Source: Deltaproteobacteria bacterium (lineage in GTDB: Bacteria; Myxococcota_C; UBA6777). Taken from it: DNA of 34,771 nt. Both the position numbers and the translations under genes were made by a program. Positions within the stretch are counted from its first letter, which is position 1; each line of letters begins with the position of its first letter. The stretch lies in contig PCBK01000138.1 in NCBI GenBank assembly GCA_002731275.1, positions 1-34,771 on the forward strand, read 5' to 3'. Under the pieces are notes generated by a model that saw nothing but the letters and a program-made list of their open reading frames with translations, was not told the DNA's origin and did no database searches. Shown one piece after another: positions 10,028-30,755 of the stretch.

Positions 10028-10888
10028 TCACCACGTCAACAGCAAACGATCGTGAACATCCTCTCCCTTCATTTTTTCACCGCTTTTTTGGAAACGTCGC
10101 AGCATAGAAGCCCCACACGAGACGAAATGTTCTCGTTCAAACAAACCGTCGGGGACCTCCAGCGCGATCTTCTGTTTCCCTGATTTTTTCTTGCCATCGA
10201 TCGACAAAACGACCTTCACGCCGCGACTTTTACACGATTCGATGACTTCGAGTAATCGCTGGAATTGAAAGCTCTGTGCACCGTACAAGATACGTTGCGA
10301 GGCGATATAGGGTGGATCACAATAAACAAGATCACCTTCTTTGGCCATCGCCATCGTCTCTTCGAAGGACTGGTGATAAAAAGTGGTGCCCTTTAGCCGC
10401 TCACGCCACTCATGAACAACCGCACGAAATGTCTTGATAGACATAGGCTTATGCATCCCAGAGGGGGTGCTCATTTTGCCCTCTTTTGTAAAGCGCACAA
10501 CCCCTCCGTAGCATGTCCTCGTCAAGACGAGCAGATCGGGCCCATTGGGTGTTTCGTTGTAACGAGAAAGAATCCTCGCGTACGTCTCTTTCGGTGCTTC
10601 GACAAATTCATGAAAGTGGGTAGTATAATGTTCGATCAAGTGCTCTGGATCCTCTTGGAGGATCTTCCAGGCCTCGATCAAAGGCGCGAGCGCATCACCG
10701 GCGATACCTTCTTCGGGGGCAACTGTCGCGAGCATCGCGCCAGCACCGATAAAAGGCTCTATGTAACGATTGTATTGTTCTGGAAAATAAGCTGTGATGG
10801 TGTAGGCGAACTTAAATTTACTACCAAGCCATTTGAAAACTTGCCCTTTTGGGCGCGTGTAACCAATCTCTAAAGACATCTGACCCAT
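10028..10888 (-). CDS. D12-class DNA adenine N6-methyltransferase (Dam family)
   Basis: The 286-residue protein transfers a methyl group from S-adenosylmethionine to adenine in DNA. KWLGSK at residues 19-24 is the motif X-like substrate lead, EPFIGAGAM at 44-52 is the AdoMet-binding motif I, and DPPY at 191-194 is the catalytic motif IV. Dam-type enzymes often recognise GATC, but specificity cannot be read here, and the segment around residues 126-144 departs from classical Dam. No restriction endonuclease gene is adjacent, so it looks like an orphan methylase. It is divergent from the HD-kinase/ligase operon across about 245 bases. The ATG at 10888 and the ATG at 10879 are both possible; neither has a strong ribosome binding site. 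Confidence 0.85.
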   Translation of the reverse strand: MGQMSLEIGYTRPKGQVFKWLGSKFKFAYTITAYFPEQYNRYIEPFIGAGAMLATVAPEEGIAGDALAPLIEAWKILQEDPEHLIEHYTTHFHEFVEAPKETYARILSRYNETPNGPDLLVLTRTCYGGVVRFTKEGKMSTPSGMHKPMSIKTFRAVVHEWRERLKGTTFYHQSFEETMAMAKEGDLVYCDPPYIASQRILYGAQSFQFQRLLEVIESCKSRGVKVVLSIDGKKKSGKQKIALEVPDGLFEREHFVSCGASMLRRFQKSGEKMKGEDVHDRLLLTW

Positions 10889-10942
10889 GCTTTGTGTACC
10901 TTACCACTCCATACAAACGGGAACCCCAACCACGAACACAAC

Positions 10943-10964
10943 TGCCGCAACCACTTGCCGCAGT
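10943..10964. promoter_or_regulatory. Repeated TGCCGCA sites in the divergent methylase/repair intergenic region
   Basis: TGCCGCA occurs at 10943-10949 and again at 10956-10962, and ACTGC (10941-10945) and GCAGT (10960-10964) form an inverted pair around them. The sites lie between the methylase gene and the repair operon, where a shared regulator could bind. The region is otherwise C-rich and G-poor on the plus strand, with no gene visible. Confidence 0.3.
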
Positions 10965-11133
10965 CATCCACTTACCTTATCCCGAAATCCCCAAAAAGAC
11001 AAGAATGTGCAACAACACCTCTCACCGACACCTCGGGAAAACGATCTCCTCCAACCGAACCCCGCCACACACTCACACGTTACACACACAGCCACGCCGT
11101 ACACGCCACATCTACCACAAAGGACACAAACCC

Positions 11134-12420
11134 ATGCACGCACTCATCGAACAACTGCAGCAAGACGAACCGCTCACCTTCACACAAGGCGTGCAACACT
11201 TTTCCGATCGTTGCCCCATGTTGCTAGACCTCCAACACACCGAACAAGATCCCATCTGGCACGCAGAGGGAAATGTCGCGATCCATACGAGTATGGTGAT
11301 CGATGCGACTGAAACCCTCCTCGAAGAGAGCAGCATCAAACGCACTGACGAGCAGCGACTCGCCCTACGCCTCGCTGCGCTCTTTCACGACATCGCAAAG
11401 CCCGTCACCACAAGGACCGAAGAAAAAGATGGGAGGATGTGTGTCCTCGCCCCCAAGCACGCCAAACGCGGTCGCTCCTACCTCGCATACAGGCTCGCAT
11501 CACTCTTACAACCGACAACCTACCTCGAAGTCCTTCAACTCGTCGCGCATCACCACGCGCCCATCCAACTCCCCATCCGCAACAAACAAGCCCCTGCCTA
11601 CCACAAAATCGCCCGAAAGGTCGACACACGTTCCCTCTACATGCTCTCCATGGCAGATATGCTCGGACGCACTTGTGATGATCAGCAAACACAAATCGAC
11701 TACGTACATTTTTTCCAGCTCGAATGCGAAAATTACGGATATTGGGAACCGTACAATCCACAAAAAGATTGGAGCGGTTTACTCGAACAGCTCACCGCCT
11801 ACCCCATCATCACCCAAGAGCGCATCCTCATGGAGAGCATCTGGGAGTACGAACGTGGGCTCTATTTTCATCCAGAGGAGGCAATCGCCCGCTCCTACGA
11901 CAAGCAAAAAGAGTGTGCGGAGGTCTATATCATGTGCGGCCCAAGTGGTAGCGGGAAGAGCACGTGGATCGAAGCCAATCACAAAGGAAAGAAGATCATC
12001 TCACTCGACCGGCTCCGAGAGCTGCACACAGGCAAACGCGCAGATCAAAAACACAACGCGCACGTCCTACATGACGCGAGAGAATCTTTTAAACAATGCT
12101 TGCGGGATAAACAGGCGGTCATTTGGGACGCGACCAATCTCCGCTTTGACTTTCGCAACGTCCTCTTCGACATCGCCCGACAATACGGAGCACATGTCAC
12201 CCTCGTCGTCGCCTGTCCCAGACTGAAAACGCTCCACAAACGCAACAAAAAACGCACACATCCGATCAAGCGCTCAGCGCTCGATCGTCAAATCAACTCC
12301 TTCCAATGGCCTGATCTCGACGAAGCACATAGAATGATCTTCATCGATGAAAAAGGCGAATGCCTCGATGATACACGTACACGATTCTTTCCACATCAGG
12401 CGAAAGCGCCAACAAAGTGA
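11134..12420 (+). CDS. HD-Pnk-type end-healing enzyme: HD phosphoesterase fused to 5'-OH polynucleotide kinase
   Basis: The 428-residue protein joins two end-repair activities. Residues about 45-200 form an HD phosphohydrolase domain with His85-Asp86 in LFHDIAKP and a His triplet at 139-141. It resembles the HD domain of tRNA nucleotidyltransferases, which removes 2',3'-cyclic phosphate ends. Residues about 262-405 form a polynucleotide kinase domain: P-loop GPSGSGKST (269-277), the likely general base Asp292 in SLDRLR, and WDATNLR (331-337). A basic lid follows at 366-380. The arrangement matches HD-Pnk enzymes such as that described from Runella. Start 11134 has AAAGGA upstream; the frame open to 10849 is not convincing. 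The ligase gene follows after nine bases. Confidence 0.88.
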   Translation: MHALIEQLQQDEPLTFTQGVQHFSDRCPMLLDLQHTEQDPIWHAEGNVAIHTSMVIDATETLLEESSIKRTDEQRLALRLAALFHDIAKPVTTRTEEKDGRMCVLAPKHAKRGRSYLAYRLASLLQPTTYLEVLQLVAHHHAPIQLPIRNKQAPAYHKIARKVDTRSLYMLSMADMLGRTCDDQQTQIDYVHFFQLECENYGYWEPYNPQKDWSGLLEQLTAYPIITQERILMESIWEYERGLYFHPEEAIARSYDKQKECAEVYIMCGPSGSGKSTWIEANHKGKKIISLDRLRELHTGKRADQKHNAHVLHDARESFKQCLRDKQAVIWDATNLRFDFRNVLFDIARQYGAHVTLVVACPRLKTLHKRNKKRTHPIKRSALDRQINSFQWPDLDEAHRMIFIDEKGECLDDTRTRFFPHQAKAPTK

Positions 12421-12429
12421 GAGCGGACA

Positions 12430-13488
12430 ATGACTGCACAGTCCCCCTTTTTGAGCTACGAAAAAATCGTCGAATCCCCCAAAAAATGGCGTCTTGATGA
12501 AAAAGAAACACGCGCCCTCGACAAACAAACGTGGGTGGTAACGGAAAAAATTCACGGCGCGCACTTCTGCTTTGTCATCGAAGAAGACGATGTCTCTGCC
12601 GCCAAACGAAAGGCATTCCTGGATCAGGATGATGACTTCTTTGGCTACGAAGATGTCTATCTGACCTACGCCGACGCTTGCACCGAATTGTTCGCGCAGT
12701 GGAAACGACATCACCCCCACACCACAAGACTCTACCTTTATGGCGAACTCTTTGGTGGCGACTACCCACATCCAGAAGTCCCGAGCAATGAGAACGTACA
12801 GGCGATCCAGACAGGCGTGTACTACGCACCAGATATTCACTTTTGCGCTTTCGATCTCGCGTACACCGACGCCGACGCGACCAAACAATATGTAGACTTT
12901 GACACCTTCGCAGAACAGCTCGACCACGTAGGGATCATGCGTACACAAGCACTCTTCGAAGGAAAATGGGCAGACGCTCTCTCCTTTGATGTCACCTTCA
13001 CATCAACCATCCCTTCGCGACTCGGACTCCCTCCTTTACAACAGGACAATCTCGCCGAAGGCGTCGTGATCAAACCCAAACAGCCTCTCTTTGTTACAGG
13101 TCCCAAAGGCCCATTTCGCCCGGTGCTCAAACAAAAAATCGCCTCCTTTGCTGAAGATCGACGCTTCCACCAAGCACAAAAATGGGAGAAGAAACATCCA
13201 CACCCATCCTATGAGCAAAATGTTTCCCCTCTCGAACAAACGCTCCTTCAATTTGTGACACCGACTCGATTGGACAACGTGCTCTCCAAAATGGGAAGAG
13301 TCGCGCCACACCAACACAAAAAGAGACAGCAATTGCTCAAAGCGTTTGAGGAAGATGTATGGGAGGCGTTGACAGAGGAAGCGCCTGAGCAGGTCACTTC
13401 CATGCGATCAGATGAGGAGGTTCGACTGAGAGAGGTCGTACAAGTCCAGTGCGAACAATGTATCGAGGCTGCGCTTTCTTCGAGATGA
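12430..13488 (+). CDS. Rnl2-type ATP-dependent RNA ligase
   Basis: All nucleotidyltransferase motifs are visible in this 352-residue protein. Motif I is TEKIHGAH with the adenylated Lys40, motif III is YLYGELFGG (102-110), motif IIIa is FCAFDL (138-143), motif IV is EGVVIKP (210-216) and motif V is LKQK (233-236). KxHG in motif I and the motif spacing match T4 Rnl2-like RNA ligases, which seal nicks with 3'-OH and 5'-phosphate ends. A C-terminal extension of about 115 residues is larger than the catalytic core requires. It begins nine bases after the HD-Pnk gene, so the operon encodes both healing and sealing. The start at 12430 has only a weak GAG element, consistent with coupling. Confidence 0.88.
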   Translation: MTAQSPFLSYEKIVESPKKWRLDEKETRALDKQTWVVTEKIHGAHFCFVIEEDDVSAAKRKAFLDQDDDFFGYEDVYLTYADACTELFAQWKRHHPHTTRLYLYGELFGGDYPHPEVPSNENVQAIQTGVYYAPDIHFCAFDLAYTDADATKQYVDFDTFAEQLDHVGIMRTQALFEGKWADALSFDVTFTSTIPSRLGLPPLQQDNLAEGVVIKPKQPLFVTGPKGPFRPVLKQKIASFAEDRRFHQAQKWEKKHPHPSYEQNVSPLEQTLLQFVTPTRLDNVLSKMGRVAPHQHKKRQQLLKAFEEDVWEALTEEAPEQVTSMRSDEEVRLREVVQVQCEQCIEAALSSR

Positions 13489-22111: not shown

Positions 22112-22512
22112 CCTTCAGACTCCTTTCCGAGTAACGCAACAGCTTCCTCTCCACCCAACAACAACTCGACCTTCTTGAGCAGCTCTTTGTAGGCGATCGG
22201 CTTCGCCAGATAATCATCACACCCTCCTTCAAGGATCCGTTTCTGGTCTCCGGGCATTGCATATGCAGTCACAGCAAGAATGGGAATGTGTTGTGTTTTA
22301 TCGCTTGCTCGTAACAAACGTGTCGCAGCCAGACCATCCGTTCCTGGGAGTTGGATGTCCATCACGATAAGATCGTATGTTTTCTGCAAAGCCATCGCGA
22401 TCCCATCATCCGCATTATCAAATTCATCGACTTGATAGCCAGCTCGAAGCAACACACCGCCGATCAATTTACGGTTGGCTGCGTTATCCTCGATAAGTAA
22501 CAATTGTTTCAT
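22108..22512 (-). CDS. Single-domain response regulator
   Basis: The 134-residue protein is one receiver domain of the CheY fold with Glu-Asp near residues 8-9, phosphoacceptor Asp52 in IVMDIQLPG, Thr in AVTAYAM and Lys in YLAKPI. It has no output domain. Its ATG overlaps the stop of the hybrid kinase gene as ATGA, and its stop overlaps the start of the EAL-protein gene in the same way. Such a receiver between a hybrid kinase and an effector usually passes phosphate or controls the kinase; that is inference from context. Confidence 0.9.
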   Translation of the reverse strand: MKQLLLIEDNAANRKLIGGVLLRAGYQVDEFDNADDGIAMALQKTYDLIVMDIQLPGTDGLAATRLLRASDKTQHIPILAVTAYAMPGDQKRILEGGCDDYLAKPIAYKELLKKVELLLGGEEAVALLGKESEG

Positions 22513-25500
22513 GGGAGTGGCCTCTTAGAAGGTTTGTACCCAAACCAAGTCTCGATATACTTCACAATGTCGCTTCCTGCAGTGCTGGCCTTTGAGAACA
22601 GTCCCTGTGTTTGCTGCTTTAACAACAAACGCTCCCCCTGACTGAGTTGTTTGGCGGTGAGGATAATCACGGGAAGATGAAGCGTACGTTGATCAGCACG
22701 AAGTCTCTTGAGGACTTCAAATCCATCGATCTCGGGCATCATCAAATCGAGCAACACCAAATCAGGAGGCTCCTCATGAACCATCGCCAGCGCCTCTGCT
22801 CCTCCGTCTGCCGTGCGTATATCGTAGGGCTTCCCTTCAAAGTATGAAGAGATGATCGACAACGCATTTGGATCGTCATCCACAACAAGAATGCACCCTG
22901 TTTTCCGTGAACACAGGATCTTATCGACGATCTCTAGCATCTCCTTTCGTCGTAGGGGCTTGGCCAACACCGCAAAGGCCCCAATACCGTTGATGACGTT
23001 GACGTGCTCATCAGCACATACAACGATGATTGGTAATCCCCGAAGCTGTTCCGACTGCGCCACCTCCGTATAAAAATCTGGGTCCAGCTGCCCTGAGATA
23101 TGCAGATCGAGAATCATAAAGTGTGGTTGTCTTTTGTAGGCGTGTGTGAGCGCAGAAGCAGTGTCTGGGAAAAAAATCACCTCAATGCCAACATCCTGGA
23201 GATACAGACGTATCAACTCCTGCGAATCAGGATCTTGGCAAACAACGACCGCCAGAGGAGAAATGGCTTCGGAGGAGCTATAGGCTTCTTTCATTTCTAG
23301 CGCGTGGGATACAACATCTTCGGCGATGTGGGTCTTAACAACTTCCGAGGACTGGTCGCAGGGGATGTGCACCCAAAAACGACTCCCTCTTCCTGGCTGA
23401 CTCTCCAATCCAACCTCACCACCGTGTAGCGTCGTGAGGCGTTTGACAAGTGCGAGTCCGAGCCCTGTGCCCTCATATTCACGGTTCATGCCACCATCAA
23501 GCTGCTCGAAGGGACGAAAAAGCCGCCCAAAATGTTCCTCCTCAATTCCGATCCCAGTATCCGAAACAGACACCTCAAAGAAACGCTCCTTGTAGGGCTT
23601 CACTTCCACTGAGACATGTCCTCCCTCAGGCGTAAATTTCACGGCATTGGAGAGCAAGTTGTACACAATTTGACGCATCTTCCTCGCGTCGACTTCGACG
23701 TGAGAGAGCGCAGAATCAACCTCATAAACAAGCTCGATATCTTTTTTCATCGCGCTTTCTTTCACGACGCTGAGTGTGCTTGCGATGAACCCCTTGAGCT
23801 CCACTCTCTCCAAAAAAAGCTCCATTTTACCGGCTTCGACTTTGGACAGATCGAGGATATCGTTAATCAAGGAGAGCAGGTGGTGACCACTCTTGAAGAT
23901 CTCGGAGACATAATCGAGTTGTTGTTTGGACAACTCACCGAGCACTTCGTCCTTCAATATTTCGGAGAACCCAATGATCGCGTTGAGTGGTGTGCGAAGT
24001 TCATGTGACATACTCGCCAAAAACTCGGACTTCATACGATTCGCGTGTGAAAGTTCTTCGTTTTGGAGGGCAATTTGACGGTTGCGTGTGTTGAGCTGAG
24101 AGGTCAGCTTTTTAAGCTGCTCGTGTTGTCGAAGCGTCGAAAGTCCTACAGAAATTTGCGTCCCCACTTGAATCAACCACTTTTTGGAGCGCTCACTAAA
24201 CTCATAACCAGACGTTCCGACCAACACGCCGAGCAAAATTTCTTTGTAGATAAGAGGGATGGCAAAAATGTGCGTGGTCTCAAAGACACCAACACCTGTG
24301 TTGAGTTGAAAGGTCCGGTTTGGGACAGACTCCCAAAAAATAGGCTCTCTTTTGAGGGCTGCTTCTCCCACCAGCCCCTCCCCCATGATGTACGTCATCT
24401 TGACATCAGTCCCAAGCCCAAGCGCACAACGCAAACTCAGCGCCCCCTCCCACTCATCAAACTGATAAAGCGCAACAGGACGATATCCTCCAACCTCTCT
24501 AAGGACATCCAATGCGTTCTCAACGGGATCATTCTCGCCTGTTTGGACAAATGTCAACATCAATTGGGAGAAAACACGCTCGATCTGTAGGCGCTCTTCG
24601 AGCAGTATGGCTTGATGAGATGAAGAAATATCCCACTGTGTCCCAATCATCCGGACCCCTTTGCCATCTTCATCTCTCACAACCACAGCGTACATCTTGA
24701 AAAAACGCTCCACTTGATCTGGGAGCAGTACACGAAACTCTGTGTCAATGTCGCTCAATCCATCGCGAGCATCGTTCATCGTTTTGACGAAGCTATCTCG
24801 TTCATCAGGGTGGACACCTGCACACCACAACTCGTAAGAGCTTGGAAAGAGGTCGGCAGAGATGCCGTAGTGCTTGTACATCTGATCGTTCCACACCATC
24901 TCCTCAGTCTCAAAATCCCACTCCCACACACCGATTCCTGCCGAAGCAGTCGCAATCTCCATCCGCTCCTTCCAATCCTGGAGAGCATCTTCGTATTGTT
25001 TTCGCTCACTCAGATCCCGAATGGCGCCAAGAAACATGACACGCTCACCAACGTGGAGACGCACAGTCGCTAACTCCACGGGAAACGCCGTACCATCCTT
25101 GTGCATCCCGTTGGTCTCTCTGAGTCCAGCCGCTTCGTGTAACTCCCCTCTCTTAAGTTTGTCCGCCTCTGGTTGTTGCACACCATCGACTGGGGAAAAA
25201 ATCGAGATCACACTCTTCCCTAAGAGTTCGCCCTCATCATACCCAAAAATCCGTTCGGCGGTTTGATTGCATTGTTCGATTTTTCCTCGCTCATCTGCGA
25301 CGATTAAGCCATCCAGGATCGTCTCGAAGATGCTCTGGTACAGAGTCGCTTGGTGGTGGGCTTTTTGGTTGGTGGAGATCATTTTTCTGTTTGCAGAATA
25401 GAGACTGAAAGACGCGAGCAAAAAGAGCAACATTGCGACGCTCAGTGTGAAAAAGATAATCTGCTTGCTGCGGTGCAACCTCCTCGAAAAGAAGAGACTT

Positions 25501-26021
25501 AACTCTTCGACGACCTTATCGGCTGTCTGCACCGCAAACAGGCCGCTCTTCACAAACTCACGTTTTGCGCGCTGTGAGGACGTTGTATTTAAGGCCTTAA
25601 AATATCGATGTTGCTCAGCAAACATCCGTTCGAGTGCGCGGTAATGTCGTTGCAGGAGTCGCTTGTTATGCACACCAGGCCAAGATACCGTCGCATGCAT
25701 CGTTTTGGACGTAAGGCGGGGATAGACTTTTCCTCCAGATAACGCTGCCTCAACGGTCGTGCGCAAGAGCAACTTTACCCTCTCCTGTTGGCTGTTTGGA
25801 CGACCGACAAGCAAAGAGAGCCGCATATACCGTTCACAAAGCATCCGTTGCCTTCCGGCAAGATCGAGCTGATGCCCCCCTAACGTCTGGACTTCGAGAG
25901 AATGCAACGCGTACAACAACCCTAAAACGACAAGCAAGAAGCAAAGCCCCACCCCCAAAAGGGCTACAATCCAAATGGGGACCGGGATCTTTTTCTCAAC
26001 GTTGGTATCCGTGTCCTGCAT
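22509..26021 (-). CDS. Membrane-bound hybrid sensor histidine kinase with two receiver domains
   Basis: The 1170-residue protein has two transmembrane helices (about 14-40 and 188-210). Between them is a region beginning HQLDLAGRQRMLCERYMRLS that matches the PilJ/type IV methyl-accepting N-terminal family, so it faces the periplasm. Next come a PAS domain (about 225-340), a PAS_3-type domain (355-467) and a GAF-like domain (480-630). The HisKA domain carries His673 in SHELRTP. The ATPase domain has NLLSNAVKF, DTGIGI and GTGLGL. Two receivers end the protein, with Asp972 and Asp1092. The start at 26021 has AGGAG upstream; the frame open to 26117 is rejected. It heads the three-gene phosphorelay, and its ligand is unknown. 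Confidence 0.9.
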   Translation of the reverse strand: MQDTDTNVEKKIPVPIWIVALLGVGLCFLLVVLGLLYALHSLEVQTLGGHQLDLAGRQRMLCERYMRLSLLVGRPNSQQERVKLLLRTTVEAALSGGKVYPRLTSKTMHATVSWPGVHNKRLLQRHYRALERMFAEQHRYFKALNTTSSQRAKREFVKSGLFAVQTADKVVEELSLFFSRRLHRSKQIIFFTLSVAMLLFLLASFSLYSANRKMISTNQKAHHQATLYQSIFETILDGLIVADERGKIEQCNQTAERIFGYDEGELLGKSVISIFSPVDGVQQPEADKLKRGELHEAAGLRETNGMHKDGTAFPVELATVRLHVGERVMFLGAIRDLSERKQYEDALQDWKERMEIATASAGIGVWEWDFETEEMVWNDQMYKHYGISADLFPSSYELWCAGVHPDERDSFVKTMNDARDGLSDIDTEFRVLLPDQVERFFKMYAVVVRDEDGKGVRMIGTQWDISSSHQAILLEERLQIERVFSQLMLTFVQTGENDPVENALDVLREVGGYRPVALYQFDEWEGALSLRCALGLGTDVKMTYIMGEGLVGEAALKREPIFWESVPNRTFQLNTGVGVFETTHIFAIPLIYKEILLGVLVGTSGYEFSERSKKWLIQVGTQISVGLSTLRQHEQLKKLTSQLNTRNRQIALQNEELSHANRMKSEFLASMSHELRTPLNAIIGFSEILKDEVLGELSKQQLDYVSEIFKSGHHLLSLINDILDLSKVEAGKMELFLERVELKGFIASTLSVVKESAMKKDIELVYEVDSALSHVEVDARKMRQIVYNLLSNAVKFTPEGGHVSVEVKPYKERFFEVSVSDTGIGIEEEHFGRLFRPFEQLDGGMNREYEGTGLGLALVKRLTTLHGGEVGLESQPGRGSRFWVHIPCDQSSEVVKTHIAEDVVSHALEMKEAYSSSEAISPLAVVVCQDPDSQELIRLYLQDVGIEVIFFPDTASALTHAYKRQPHFMILDLHISGQLDPDFYTEVAQSEQLRGLPIIVVCADEHVNVINGIGAFAVLAKPLRRKEMLEIVDKILCSRKTGCILVVDDDPNALSIISSYFEGKPYDIRTADGGAEALAMVHEEPPDLVLLDLMMPEIDGFEVLKRLRADQRTLHLPVIILTAKQLSQGERLLLKQQTQGLFSKASTAGSDIVKYIETWFGYKPSKRPLP

Positions 26022-26473
26022 ACAGCGCTCCTGTGCCGAAAGGAACTTTTTCGGTGGCTGCAAGAAAAAGGAGACAGAAAAAAGAAACGCAGGTGAAAGT
26101 TGCAGTTGGAATCGCAAGCGTCGTGACTCGTCGTCGACATGGTCCAGCCACGTCTTCTCCTCGTGTCTTGCCTGAGGTTCCGTCTACTGTCCTCCTTCGT
26201 ACGCTTTTTTCCTTGCAGCAGCCTTCTCAGAATATCTTTCCGTACATACATCCAAAAAAAGAAGTTCTTACAAGCGAATATCGTATTCTATTCGGAATCC
26301 AACGGTAAAATCAAGCATAAACATACTAAACTGATTTTACATATAAAACCCTCGCAATAAAGTATATGTACAGCAAGCACATAGAAAAAGTCCACACTTA
26401 AAAGTAAAAAAATGTCACATCATAAAAAAATGAACCAAAGTGTCTATGAATGCGTATGCTGCATTGGAAATGG

Positions 26474-26644
26474 GAACTGTTGTGTCAGTACAGTAGCTCA
26501 CTAGGAAGAGCATCGGATTGAAACTCTGAGTGAATGGGTTCGAGTCCCATCGAAAATAGACATACCCCTTCTCCTACTTTCCACCTTGATTCATTGCATT
26601 ATGATCTTGGGACGTATTCAACGAGAACTGTTGTGTTTGTACAG
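26474..26644 (+). repeat. Two copies of a 20-base leader repeat, each before a tRNA-like unit
   Basis: GAACTGTTGTGTCAGTACAG at 26474-26493 and GAACTGTTGTGTTTGTACAG at 26625-26644 agree at 18 of 20 positions, 151 bases apart. The first copy runs straight into base 8 of a tRNA-Phe-like body. The second is followed five bases later by a sequence resembling the anticodon arm and T arm of another tRNA. Each copy contains CTGT and ACAG arms spaced by nine bases. This may be a promoter, a processing signal or a recombination site. Confidence 0.6.
26487..26558 (+). tRNA. tRNA-Phe(GAA)-like unit with a non-pairing acceptor stem
   Basis: From U8 to base 65 the fold is complete. TA lies at 26494-26495. 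The D stem is GCTC/GAGC with G18-G19. The anticodon stem is TCGGA/TCTGA around TTGAAAC, giving anticodon GAA with T33 and A37. The variable region has four bases. The T stem is ATGGG/CCCAT around TTCGAGT. The expected acceptor 3' strand is CGAAAAT with A26558 as discriminator, but the seven bases before U8 (AGTACAG, the end of the leader repeat) pair at only three scattered positions. No CCA is encoded. It is either a damaged tRNA gene whose 5' end was replaced, or an unusual gene needing acceptor repair. Confidence 0.5.
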
Positions 26645-26661
26645 AAAATTCGGCGTTGTAA

Positions 26662-26741
26662 GCCAGAGGTCGAAGGTTCGATTCCTTCTCTCGCCAGTTT
26701 TACGGCGAGATAGCTCAGTTTGGTAGAGCACTGCTTTTCAC
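26662..26741 (+). tRNA. Possible circularly permuted tRNA-Glu(UUC)-like gene
   Basis: A tRNA 3' half lies upstream of a tRNA 5' half. The 3' half (26662-26696) has GCCAG, a five-base variable region, T stem GAAGG/CCTTC around TTCGATT, acceptor strand TCTCGCC and discriminator A. Seven bases later the 5' half (26704-26741) has GGCGAGA, TA, a D stem GCTC/GAGC with G18-G19, then CTGC and TTTTCAC. The acceptor strands pair at 7 of 7 positions. Joined in order, the anticodon loop is TTTTCAC (anticodon TTC), closed by CTGC with G(C)CAG, four pairs plus one bulged C. No CCA is encoded. Alternatively, remnants of two tandem tRNA genes are read as one: bases 26650-26666 alone can form an anticodon-like arm with TGT. 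Confidence 0.45.
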
Positions 26742-26765
26742 ACGAGCACACACCTTCCCTCGTGT
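26740..26765 (-). terminator. Candidate hairpin downstream of the TonB operon
   Basis: ACACGAG (26740-26746) and CTCGTGT (26759-26765) form a perfect 7-bp stem around a 12-base loop, about 40 bases past the stop of the last gene of the minus-strand TonB operon. No T-tract follows in that direction, so factor-independent termination is uncertain. Its left arm overlaps the end of the tRNA 5' half. Confidence 0.3.
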
Positions 26766-26802
26766 CCTCAGATCCCCCCTCCCATGAAGTTGCAAAATGA
26801 CG

Positions 26803-27897
26803 TTATGGACTCGCCTTTGGTCCCACTTTCACACGAATCATACGCCAATCAAAGCCACCTCGCCTGTCTCGTGCGATCGCGACGATATTGACTTGCAGCC
26901 CCTCTTTGAGCGCCTGCCCCCGGAAATCATTTGGATACCAGTATGGATCTTCGGTGTGTTGGGGAGGATTCTTCCCCGAAAAAATCGACGCAGATCGGTC
27001 AAATTCTCCTTCTGTTGCATACCATAAGATCTGGATATCTTCTTTGAATTTAACACCATCGACAGTTGAAGTCAGTTCATCTTGAGAGGCTGGATCAATC
27101 TCTGCTTTGATCTTCAGCTTCCCTCCAATAGGCACGGTGATCTCATCGCACTTGTCGGCTTCCCCTGGCATGCAGGAGGTGATGGACTTTTCGTCAGCCA
27201 AAAACCCTGTAATTTTGGGATTATGGTTGCGATTCTCTTCGGTTTTACTGGAGATCAGCACATTTTTGAGTGAGATCTGTTGAAGTCCGTCATAAGACGC
27301 GGTCAGGATCAACAGCGCATCAGCGCCCTTCTCCTTCTCTTCGGTGGTCTTCAATGGATCCAAAAACCCTTTGGGGACAGTCCAACGAATCGTCTCACCA
27401 CAAGGTGGAAATCCAGGCAGACACACCAAACTCTCCGTTCGATTGGCGTCCATACTCGCAGGACAAAGTGTCACACTACCAAAGGGGTTGCCACCATCAG
27501 GCACACCACCATCAGGTGCACCACCATCGAACCCACCGCTCGCAAGCCCTGTACAAGAAGCGTTTGAGTTACCTGGGCCCAGCATGGGAAGACAGGCAAC
27601 CCAGAGTGCTTGTGGTTTGTCACATGAAAATGTACCTGCTTTGAACGCTCCATCAGGATTCATCGCGAGAAAAGAGAGCTGCGCTGTTTCGCCTGGTGCG
27701 AGCTCAGGAGGTTCTGACTTGATCGCGAGGACCCTAAACTTATCGATCTGTGAGATAGGCGGGAAAGGTGGTTGGCAATCTTCAAAACAGCTCGCAAAAA
27801 GCATCAACGCACAAAGCAACATGCCCCCTTTCAAGAGAGCAAAGATTCTATGTACACGCTGACTTGACATCATACTTCCCTGCTTGTGATGTGACAT
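26803..27897 (-). CDS. Lipoprotein at the end of the TonB operon
   Basis: The 364-residue protein has a hydrophobic signal ending Leu-Phe-Ala-Ser-Cys, so it is probably lipidated. The mature part is rich in Cys and Pro, with a low-complexity Asp-Gly-Gly repeat around residues 150-170, a composition common in myxobacterial lipoproteins. No enzymatic family is recognised. Its placement directly after the receptor gene suggests a surface partner of the receptor. The ATG at 27897 shares a base with the receptor's TGA and has AAAGGA eight bases upstream. A later ATG at 27873 would give a shorter, more typical signal peptide and is a real alternative. Confidence 0.7.
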   Translation of the reverse strand: MSHHKQGSMMSSQRVHRIFALLKGGMLLCALMLFASCFEDCQPPFPPISQIDKFRVLAIKSEPPELAPGETAQLSFLAMNPDGAFKAGTFSCDKPQALWVACLPMLGPGNSNASCTGLASGGFDGGAPDGGVPDGGNPFGSVTLCPASMDANRTESLVCLPGFPPCGETIRWTVPKGFLDPLKTTEEKEKGADALLILTASYDGLQQISLKNVLISSKTEENRNHNPKITGFLADEKSITSCMPGEADKCDEITVPIGGKLKIKAEIDPASQDELTSTVDGVKFKEDIQILWYATEGEFDRSASIFSGKNPPQHTEDPYWYPNDFRGQALKEGLQVNIVAIARDRRGGFDWRMIRVKVGPKASP

Positions 27898-30755
27898 CAA
27901 AACTGTCCTTTCACGCCAAGAGATGGAAAGATCGGGAGCCCTGTAAGCGGCGCTGTTTGGGTGAAATCGTAGTTGTTGATCGTCCCCTCCTGGTTGGGAT
28001 AGTTGTAGACGTTTTGCACATCGAGATAAAAGGAGAGTTTCCACAGTGGGAAGACCAGCTCGTAATCGAGACGGATATCCAGCTGGTGAAAGAGCGGGTT
28101 GCGAGCTGAGTACAACTTCCCAGGGATCTGGATATAGCCGTTGGTGTCGGCGTTGTAGATACTCCCCTGAATCGGCGTGTAGGGGTTTCCACTGACCAAC
28201 CGAAAGCGCGCACTGACAGAGAAGCCAAAGCCCAACTTATACGCTCCCAGGACCGTAAAGATATGCGTCTGATCGTAGTCAAACAAACGCCACTCCTTAC
28301 CAGGAGCGTCTTGTCGTTCGGAGCGACCTACAGTATAGCTCAACCAGCCAAAGAAGCGTTTGTGAGGCGGAAAGCGAATCAACACTTCGAGACCATAAGC
28401 ACGCCCGACACCTTGGTTATTGAGTCGTTCGGACACCTCATCGCCATCTCGGATGACGACTTGATTGCTGCTCGTGATCAAGTCATACAAATGTTTGTAG
28501 TAGAAGGTAAATTCGGTTGTAAACTCTCGACAAATATCGCCGAGAGCGGCTGGACACTTCCAACGCCCTACGAGTCCCGCTGTGTAGTGAATGGCATTTT
28601 CGGACTTGATCAATGGGTTCCCAAAATCGGGGTTCACCTCCTGCCCTGACGGAGGTTGAGAAAACAGGCCGACACTCCCCGTTAAGGTGAGCGGCTTGAT
28701 CACTGTCCAAGAGACGGCAAAACGCGGATTGATCAAAAATTGCTCAGGACGAGAGAAGTAGTCAACACGCACACCTGTGATCGTCCTCAGCGGTTTGACA
28801 GGCTTCCAATTGATCTCAAAGTAAGCAGCAGGCTCCATCACCCATTGTTTATTCTCGATGGTCCGGTACTCATCGAGTGTACTACTTGTCGATCCAGAGC
28901 CGGGTTCATCTTCAGGGCGTGGAGGGGAGATGTTGGGGATTCGTAGAGAGAGCTCGGTCCTCCTGATCCGCGTATCAATCCCCATCCGAAAAGACAAGAA
29001 TGAGAAGGGTTTGAGCCTCAACTCATCGCGAAAAGAGAAGTCATAGTTGGCGTTATCGACAGTGATCGCAGCGCCTGCGTTTGTGTTGGTGCTGGTCAGA
29101 CCAACATCAAATGAGAGCTGGTGTTCGATCGTTTTGGAGGGCGCGATCTTCCAATATGTTTGGAAACGGTAGAAGGTAGTCGTAAAATTAAAGTCCCCTC
29201 GAATATTCGATCGGCCGATGGGTTCATCTCGTAAAAAAGAGAGCCGATCGTCGGAGAAATAGAACATAATCCCGACACTTTGGGCCTTGGTGATTTGCCA
29301 ATCGAGTTTGACTTGAGCGTCGTAGTAACGAGGCGCAACAGTTAAATCAAAAGCCCTGTTATCCGAGGGCAAGACCAACCCCAAAAATGCATCGAGGTGG
29401 CTACGTCGGCCACTGATGATGAGGTTCGCGCCCTTCCACAGTGGTCCTTCGAGAAACAACCCAATATCCGTAAAGTCGAAATCGAGATAACCGTGCCAGC
29501 GATCTTTCCCTTTGCGGGTTTGTAAATCGATAACACCACCTGTTGAGCGGCCATATGCGACACTAAATCCGCCTGGGATAAAATCCAATCGCTTCGCCAT
29601 GTCACCGTTAAGTACAGCGGTCAAACCACCAAAATGGTACAGCTGTGGGATCTGATGACCGTTGAGATACACACGGGAGTCATCTGGAGCCGATCCACGG
29701 ACGACGAAAAAGCCTGTGTTCAGAGGTGTACGAGCGACACCAGGGAGGTTTTGTACAACCTTCAGAGGATCACCTTGTGTGCCAGGTAGGACCTTGATCT
29801 CTTCTTGTCGTAAGGATTGACGATGGATCTCGCGCCGCTCTTTGCGCTCCCTCGTCACAGTCTCAAAGAGTCCGGAGCCTTCGCTGCGGATATACCACGC
29901 CCGCTCTTGTTTTTCACCGGCAAAAATCGGAATGATCGGCTTCTTGGTCTTTCGATCACGTCCTGGTTTGACGGAACGTTTTTTGCCTCTGTAGACACGT
30001 AAAATAGCCTGAAAGCGTTTATAGTTAGGCACAGGGATCACGAGACGATATCGCCCAGGGGGGAGCTTCGGAACTTCATACTGCCCTTGCTCGTTGGCGA
30101 TCACCTGCTTTTTGACGCGTTGTCCGAGGAAAAACATCGTCGCACCATCGATCGGCTTCCTCGTCCCTCGTTCGAGAACGTAGCCATACAACATGGTCTC
30201 TGTTGAGGTCGGCTGCATCGTCCTTTTTTTGACCGTCGTACGTCGCGCAACAGGTCGACTTGTGGGTCGGGAGGTGGGCTGTTGACGTTTGGCAGGACGA
30301 CTTGTCGGTGCCTTCACAGTCTTCACAAAAAAAGCATAGCGATAATTGATCCGAACAGGGACGGGTTTTCCCTTGTAAGTCGCAGGGACAAACTGGAATT
30401 GCTTTGCGGCTTTCATCGCGGCGTCATCGAATGCTTTTCCGGCAGATTGTAGGATGGTCACTTTGGCGACCTGCCCTTTTTTATCGACGATCAATTGAAG
30501 GATCACAGAGACGTTCTTACGCTTCTTCAGCTCGACCTTTGGGTAGGGTGCCTTGATAAACTGCTTCAGCTTTGGGGGAACAAAACCCTTGGGTGTGGAA
30601 GATTTGGAGACTTTCTTTTTCGTCTCATTGTTGGAGGTTTTGGTATCCGTTTTTTTGGATGTCGTATCGGTCGCTTTTTTGGATGTATCTTCAGCATAGA
30701 CAGAAGAAGGCACAAACAAGAGCAATGATAGAAAAAGGAAAAGAAGGGTACGCAT
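27897..30755 (-). CDS. TonB-dependent outer-membrane receptor with an N-terminal TonB C-terminal-like domain
   Basis: The 952-residue protein has a signal peptide (1-21), a Lys/Ser/Thr-rich spacer, then a domain at about 62-145 resembling the C-terminal domain of TonB, ending YKGKPVPVRINYRYAF. A Pro/Arg-rich linker follows. Residues 188-265 form a carboxypeptidase-regulatory-like beta domain, 315-415 a plug containing VVRGSAPDDSRVYLNG and PGGFSVAYG, and the remainder a 22-strand-type barrel ending in Phe. Such receptors import scarce substrates using energy from ExbB-ExbD-TonB, all encoded just upstream. The substrate is not evident. The ATG at 30755 shares a base with the stop of tonB, with GGAGG upstream; an in-frame TTG at 30758 is less likely. 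Confidence 0.88.
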   Translation of the reverse strand: MRTLLFLFLSLLLFVPSSVYAEDTSKKATDTTSKKTDTKTSNNETKKKVSKSSTPKGFVPPKLKQFIKAPYPKVELKKRKNVSVILQLIVDKKGQVAKVTILQSAGKAFDDAAMKAAKQFQFVPATYKGKPVPVRINYRYAFFVKTVKAPTSRPAKRQQPTSRPTSRPVARRTTVKKRTMQPTSTETMLYGYVLERGTRKPIDGATMFFLGQRVKKQVIANEQGQYEVPKLPPGRYRLVIPVPNYKRFQAILRVYRGKKRSVKPGRDRKTKKPIIPIFAGEKQERAWYIRSEGSGLFETVTRERKERREIHRQSLRQEEIKVLPGTQGDPLKVVQNLPGVARTPLNTGFFVVRGSAPDDSRVYLNGHQIPQLYHFGGLTAVLNGDMAKRLDFIPGGFSVAYGRSTGGVIDLQTRKGKDRWHGYLDFDFTDIGLFLEGPLWKGANLIISGRRSHLDAFLGLVLPSDNRAFDLTVAPRYYDAQVKLDWQITKAQSVGIMFYFSDDRLSFLRDEPIGRSNIRGDFNFTTTFYRFQTYWKIAPSKTIEHQLSFDVGLTSTNTNAGAAITVDNANYDFSFRDELRLKPFSFLSFRMGIDTRIRRTELSLRIPNISPPRPEDEPGSGSTSSTLDEYRTIENKQWVMEPAAYFEINWKPVKPLRTITGVRVDYFSRPEQFLINPRFAVSWTVIKPLTLTGSVGLFSQPPSGQEVNPDFGNPLIKSENAIHYTAGLVGRWKCPAALGDICREFTTEFTFYYKHLYDLITSSNQVVIRDGDEVSERLNNQGVGRAYGLEVLIRFPPHKRFFGWLSYTVGRSERQDAPGKEWRLFDYDQTHIFTVLGAYKLGFGFSVSARFRLVSGNPYTPIQGSIYNADTNGYIQIPGKLYSARNPLFHQLDIRLDYELVFPLWKLSFYLDVQNVYNYPNQEGTINNYDFTQTAPLTGLPIFPSLGVKGQF

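Follow-up and report, generated by a model that had tools for sequence, protein, structure and literature searches.

A probable circularly permuted tRNA-Thr(UGU) gene and related permuted tRNA genes in a bacterial phylum

Circularly permuted tRNA genes have been described from Cyanidioschyzon merolae, the prasinophytes, the Bigelowiella nucleomorph and the archaeon Thermofilum pendens (PMC3978253, PMC3218864). Bacterial tRNA genes, in turn, have been reviewed as uniform, with group I and group II introns as the main exception, and the table of tRNA gene diversity in that review has no permuted tRNA in bacteria (PMC4033280). Judged by that table and by the open-access literature, the gene order reported here is new for bacteria, being known from algae and an archaeon; the first-pass annotation of this DNA, which knew of no accepted bacterial example, is borne out to the same extent. 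An identical permuted order is nevertheless found in the bacterial Y RNAs, which that annotation overlooked; YrlA is described as mimicking a tRNA in circularly permuted form on a long stem (PMC11472068, PMC8394870), and such an RNA is the main alternative to the reading given here.

The window, by which we mean the whole stretch of 34,771 nucleotides analysed here, comes from a genome of 10.75 Mb in 200 contigs (G000), one of the five genomes of a single family that make up our sample of the phylum. Within it, in an intergenic region and on the plus strand, lie the 3' part of a tRNA, a short linker and the 5' part of a tRNA, in that order (Table 1). The acceptor strands, TCTCGCC in the 3' part and GGCGAGA in the 5' part, pair at 7/7 positions across the linker, A73 of the 3' part is position 26696, the T-arm reads GAAGG-TTCGATT-CCTTC (26672-26688), and both the D-arm and the T-arm are canonical; on the acceptor strands, the two arms and the seven-base distance between the halves, the first-pass annotation was correct. 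The algal and T. pendens permuted genes likewise have the 3' half first and complementary acceptor strands, and their flanks pair at the junction; the 7-nt linker compares with linkers of 7 and 1 nt in T. pendens and of 5-85 nt in the algae (PMC3978253, PMC3218864).

To locate the join, all junctions between the two halves were enumerated. The best connects CTG, ending at 26733, to GC, beginning at 26653, and gives the arm CTGGC-GTTGTAA-GCCAG, with five Watson-Crick pairs, T33 and A37 and no bulge; the joined sequence across the junction is CTG followed by GCGTTGTAA. When both flanks were shuffled, a perfect arm at any junction arose in 102 of 20,000 trials. ARAGORN calls the joined halves as a canonical tRNA-Thr(TGT) with neither gap nor overlap, calls nothing from the unjoined sequence, and reports none of the ordinary kind in the window, nor one overlapping the permuted locus. 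The cut, at nt 29/30 of the anticodon stem, is ambiguous by one nucleotide, 28/29 being equally good. The order of the halves therefore stands as it was originally read, but their outer ends move, from 26662 to 26653 (or 26652) for the start of the 3' part and from 26741 to 26733 (or 26732) for the end of the 5' part. With them goes the earlier view of a tRNA-Glu(UUC) with the loop TTTTCAC, a bulged C in the anticodon stem and a junction at the end of the anticodon loop; the junction falls within the stem, the whole loop belongs to the 3' part and the joined arm is that of Thr(UGU). Elsewhere G000 has numerous intact tRNA genes, with both Glu(UUC) and Thr(UGU) among them. An intact tRNA-Glu(UUC) had been put forward as an observation that might refute the permuted reading, but it has no bearing as such, because the identity is Thr; the intact Thr(UGU) tRNAs make the permuted copy supernumerary, and nothing requires it.

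Table 1. Positions of the features discussed, in the window unless a genome and contig are given.
Feature	Position	Strand	Evidence or remarks
HD domain and P-loop polynucleotide-kinase-like protein, candidate RNA end-healing enzyme	10849..12420	+	PF01966, PF13671, kinase part of bacter_Pnkp, phrog polynucleotide kinase
T4 Rnl2-family RNA ligase, candidate sealing enzyme	12430..13488	+	PF09414, PF18043, TIGR02307 (below cut-off), trypanosome editing ligase and T4 Rnl2 in PDB
Sensor-kinase gene on one side of the permuted tRNA locus	22509-26117	minus	
tRNA-Phe(GAA)-like relic, which retains the D, anticodon and T arms but not the acceptor stem	26493..26551	+	RF00005 39.3 bits, model 7-64
Leader (intron 3' side); ACGAG 26621-26625, TTGTGT 26631-26636 and GAAAA 26644-26648 able to pair with trailer	26619..26652	+	partners read from sequence
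3' part of permuted tRNA-Thr(UGU), nt 30-73 (whole anticodon loop GTTGTAA, T-arm, 3' acceptor strand, A73)	26653..26696	+	
7-nt linker GTTTTAC joining the acceptor ends	26697..26703	+	
5' part of permuted tRNA-Thr(UGU), nt 1-29 (5' acceptor strand, D-arm, CTG of anticodon stem)	26704..26733	+	
Trailer (intron 5' side); TTTTC 26735-26739, ACACGA 26740-26745, CTCGT 26759-26763	26734..26771	+	
ORF without known family on the other side of the permuted tRNA locus	26803-28044	minus	
Leu(UAA), 43/44 class	G000:C4		
Asn(GUU), 43/44 class	G002:C201 and G004:C471		
Tyr(GUA), 43/44 class	G002:C138		CUA in G004 ortholog
Pro(UGG), 43/44 class	G002:C138		
Insert-bearing tRNAs	L054 1651-2372, L078 490-607 (G000:C41, C81); G002:C201:23895-24104, C193; G004:C152, C473		

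The sequences on either side of the locus can pair with each other. The leader-trailer duplex has an energy of -36.4 in RNAduplex against -21.8 in shuffles (z -3.8; 1/500 shuffles as good), although no strict bulge-helix-bulge was recognised at the junction, a difference from the algal and archaeal permuted genes. The minimum-energy fold of the precursor is mixed, the acceptor stem being retained and the T-stem lost. This pairing bears on the possibility, already raised in the first-pass annotation, that two tandem tRNA genes have decayed here, leaving by chance a 3' half from one and a 5' half from the other. The tRNA-Phe relic, 110 nt upstream of the permuted tRNA-Thr, indicates that tRNA decay does occur at this place, long tandem tRNA arrays exist in G000, some with common acceptor stems, and intact tandem tRNA pairs do resemble the permuted unit over the junction. 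However, both truncations would need to meet at exactly one nucleotide of the anticodon stem, the leader and trailer pair, and sister genes with covarying leaders (see below) show that the permutation is real in the phylum; we consider this origin quite unlikely. A comparison with relatives, in which two full tandem genes at this position would have spoken for decay, turned up no two intact tandem tRNAs, but no ortholog of the locus was found either in the other four genomes of the family.

Several further observations concern the tRNA content of this genome. A direct repeat, GAACTGTTGTGT..GTACAG, occurs at 26474-26494, before the tRNA-Phe relic, and again at 26625-26644, within the permuted tRNA's leader. 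Three other contigs (L055, L058 and L060; G000:C65, C121 and C200) hold arrays of extra, divergent tRNAs, some with common acceptor stems; C121, for instance, has numerous short-armed Met(CAU)-like copies. A match in a Salmonella phage (SP-058) was rejected as a permuted unit, as it consists of two intact tandem tRNAs.

The locus could instead encode a YrlA-type bacterial Y RNA, with which it has in common the order of T-arm, acceptor hairpin and D-arm on a basal stem; such an RNA would keep a stable permuted tRNA-like fold, never be joined, and mimic a tRNA while bound to a Ro-like protein. The Rfam YrlA model (RF02553) gives 41.4 bits over the tRNA-like module, comparable to the 45.0 and 37.9 of phage units adjacent to Ro-like genes, and G000 encodes both a Ro-like DUF2828 gene, on another contig, and, next to DUF7873, a pair of Y-like RNAs. 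This score covers only model positions 23-85 and lies below the Rfam gathering score of 69, as do those of the phage units adjacent to Ro-like genes (38-45 bits). Because intact pairs of tandem tRNAs score up to 38.9 bits, the YrlA score was rejected as a sole test. As the tRNA-Thr locus, the phage units and the intact tandem tRNAs all score alike, the model is indecisive and it is the joining of the halves that decides. Three YrlA-type units (L253, L256 and L039) gave no proper tRNA when joined, two yielding nothing and the third only an unassigned call whose anticodon has two bases, whereas the tRNA-Thr locus gives one; in a YrlA RNA, where a basal stem replaces the anticodon arm, the halves would give no tRNA, whereas here the arm is perfect. 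A Ro/Rsr partner is usually encoded near a YrlA RNA; no Ro gene was recognised near the locus, and no TROVE match rose above the cut-off in the five genomes, although G000 does have the DUF2828 Ro-like gene mentioned above. A Y RNA is an unlikely identity for the locus.

Such RNAs do occur in the family. Pairs of units at G000:C3, G002:C64 and G004:C306 were dropped as permuted tRNAs and reclassified as Y-like RNAs, because a homologous RNA pair following DUF7873 in Streptomyces and Nonomuraea has no conserved anticodon. They form part of a conserved cassette, comprised of a DUF7873 gene and two tandem permuted tRNA-like (Y-like) RNAs ~145 nt apart (L145, on G000:C3, L147 and L148; L249-L251 in Streptomyces and Nonomuraea), which is homologous between the source phylum and the Actinomycetota.

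The permuted tRNA-Thr is not alone in the phylum; further reversed tRNA genes were found in relatives as well as in G000, the joined halves of which read as Val, Leu, Tyr, Pro and Asn. With R2, a covariance model of permuted units, those of G000, G002, G003 and G004 score 51-70 bits against 48 or less for intact tandem tRNA pairs, although most of the units scored, tRNA-Thr included, were in the model or were orthologs of its members, and the score of the tRNA-Thr unit is inflated and circular because that unit was in the model. Outside the R2 training, the Val(CAC) gene of G003 has the same 29/30 junction as tRNA-Thr, a perfect joined arm and flank pairing with a z of -7.3, and its minimum-energy fold shows a permuted cloverleaf standing on a long basal helix. 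In a second class the junction is at nt 43/44, and the 5' half holds the complete anticodon arm (Table 1); the junctions in this phylum, at 29/30 or 43/44, differ from the 37/38, 20/21 and 59/60 named for the algal and archaeal genes (PMC3978253, PMC3218864).

Genes of the 43/44 class are called as tRNAs when joined, and none is called when unjoined. Their trailers start with (T)AACA or a near-variant, and most, though not all, carry a conserved leader hairpin; in the Leu, Tyr and Pro genes and in C201a, a neighbouring permuted unit that lacks a convincing anticodon loop, this has the form GYGG-7 bp-loop with AUCRG-7 bp-UC-CCRC. Over these four and two orthologs, 98.5% of cells are paired, with 8/11 pairs changed on both sides, compared with 23-62% paired in slid controls, whilst leader-trailer pairing in this class is not significant against shuffles. 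Orthologs in two species have an exon identity of 93-100%. The permuted tRNA-Tyr(GUA) (G002:C138, L199) has an ortholog in G004 (G004:C167, L193) with the anticodon CUA, which would read UAG. The permuted two-piece tmRNA of several bacterial groups (Rfam RF04321) is, like the tRNA-Thr locus, encoded by a permuted bacterial gene for a tRNA-like molecule, but it remains in two pieces; the RF04321 model matched one sister gene weakly, below its threshold. Together with the reversed order, the perfect joined cloverleaf, the non-random flank pairing and the ligase genes considered below, the sister genes and their covarying leader hairpins argue that the locus is probably a circularly permuted tRNA-Thr(UGU) gene, so that the central proposal of the first-pass annotation is the best-supported reading, strengthened by the relatives, even though its Glu identity and junction have been replaced.

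The tRNA genes of this family are unusual in another respect. In five tRNAs of G000 (C41 and C81) an insert of ~45 nt lies in or beside the anticodon arm. Its core is a hairpin, GNGYTTTGTANAAARCNC, with the tail CTCAGCA; in G002 and G004 the tail is CACAGCA or CGCAGCA. Significant copies of the insert-core model (R1) lie inside tRNAs only, in these three genomes, and a search of GTDB genomes and viral contigs gave scattered matches, none within a recognisable tRNA. The hairpin is 100% paired among 11 sequences, with three pairs changed on both sides, and in one ortholog pair a G-C of the anticodon stem has become A-U across the insert, the flanks being 49% and 17% identical. A group I intron was rejected, as the inserts are too short and have no Rfam group I match. 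In the tRNA-Thr locus the trailer can form a local hairpin, ACACGAG..CTCGTGT followed by CCTCAG, with a faint likeness to this insert core, but R1 gives no match there. A Ro-like gene (DUF2828 and DUF7788, phrog_850) stands directly upstream of the insert-tRNA pair or array in G000, G002 and G004; the phrog_850 phage family is annotated as 'Ro-like RNA binding protein' in mycobacteriophages. A tRNA-Tyr(GUA)-like gene (L059 838-1000, G000:C160) has a longer insert, of ~85 nt, between the D-arm and the anticodon arm, and acceptor strands complementary at 7/7 positions. The closest parallel may be the tRNA introns of Lak megaphages, called enigmatic where they were described (PMC6784885); both are non-standard tRNA inserts in the bacterial world, likened here by description, and the Lak introns were not reported as permuted.

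Maturation of the permuted tRNA-Thr would call for both cutting and sealing. The archaeal/eukaryal tRNA splicing endonuclease (PF01974), found in four archaeal controls, is absent from G000, which sets this genome apart from the hosts of the algal and archaeal permuted genes; PF01974 is, however, a part of the known permuted-tRNA machinery and not of the gene order itself. RtcB is present in 4/5 genomes, with several copies in G000. The window also encodes an HD-kinase/Rnl2 healing-sealing pair (10849-13488), ~13 kb from the permuted tRNA. In the maturation that we propose, the transcript would run from the leader through the 3' half, the 7-nt linker and the 5' half to the trailer, and pairing of leader with trailer would draw together both cut sites within the anticodon stem (nt 29/30). 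Cleavage there would fall to a nuclease or ribozyme yet to be found, and an RNA ligase, for which either RtcB or the HD-kinase/Rnl2 pair may serve, would seal the halves as a circle. The acceptor ends would then presumably be cut by RNase P and tRNase Z, which would free the linker, leaving a tRNA-Thr(UGU) that may be charged.

It is possible, and we suggest it tentatively, that this bacterial phylum has a tRNA splicing of its own, in which that yet-to-be-found nuclease or ribozyme does the cutting in permuted genes and ~45-nt hairpin introns and RtcB or HD-kinase/Rnl2 does the sealing, independently of the archaeal/eukaryal endonuclease. If this is true, permuted genes and short structured introns within one bacterial phylum would represent a second route of tRNA splicing, with a new cutting activity open to experiment. 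Permuted tRNA genes may also be an evolutionary source of the Y RNAs, in which the identical permuted order is found but the halves are not joined.
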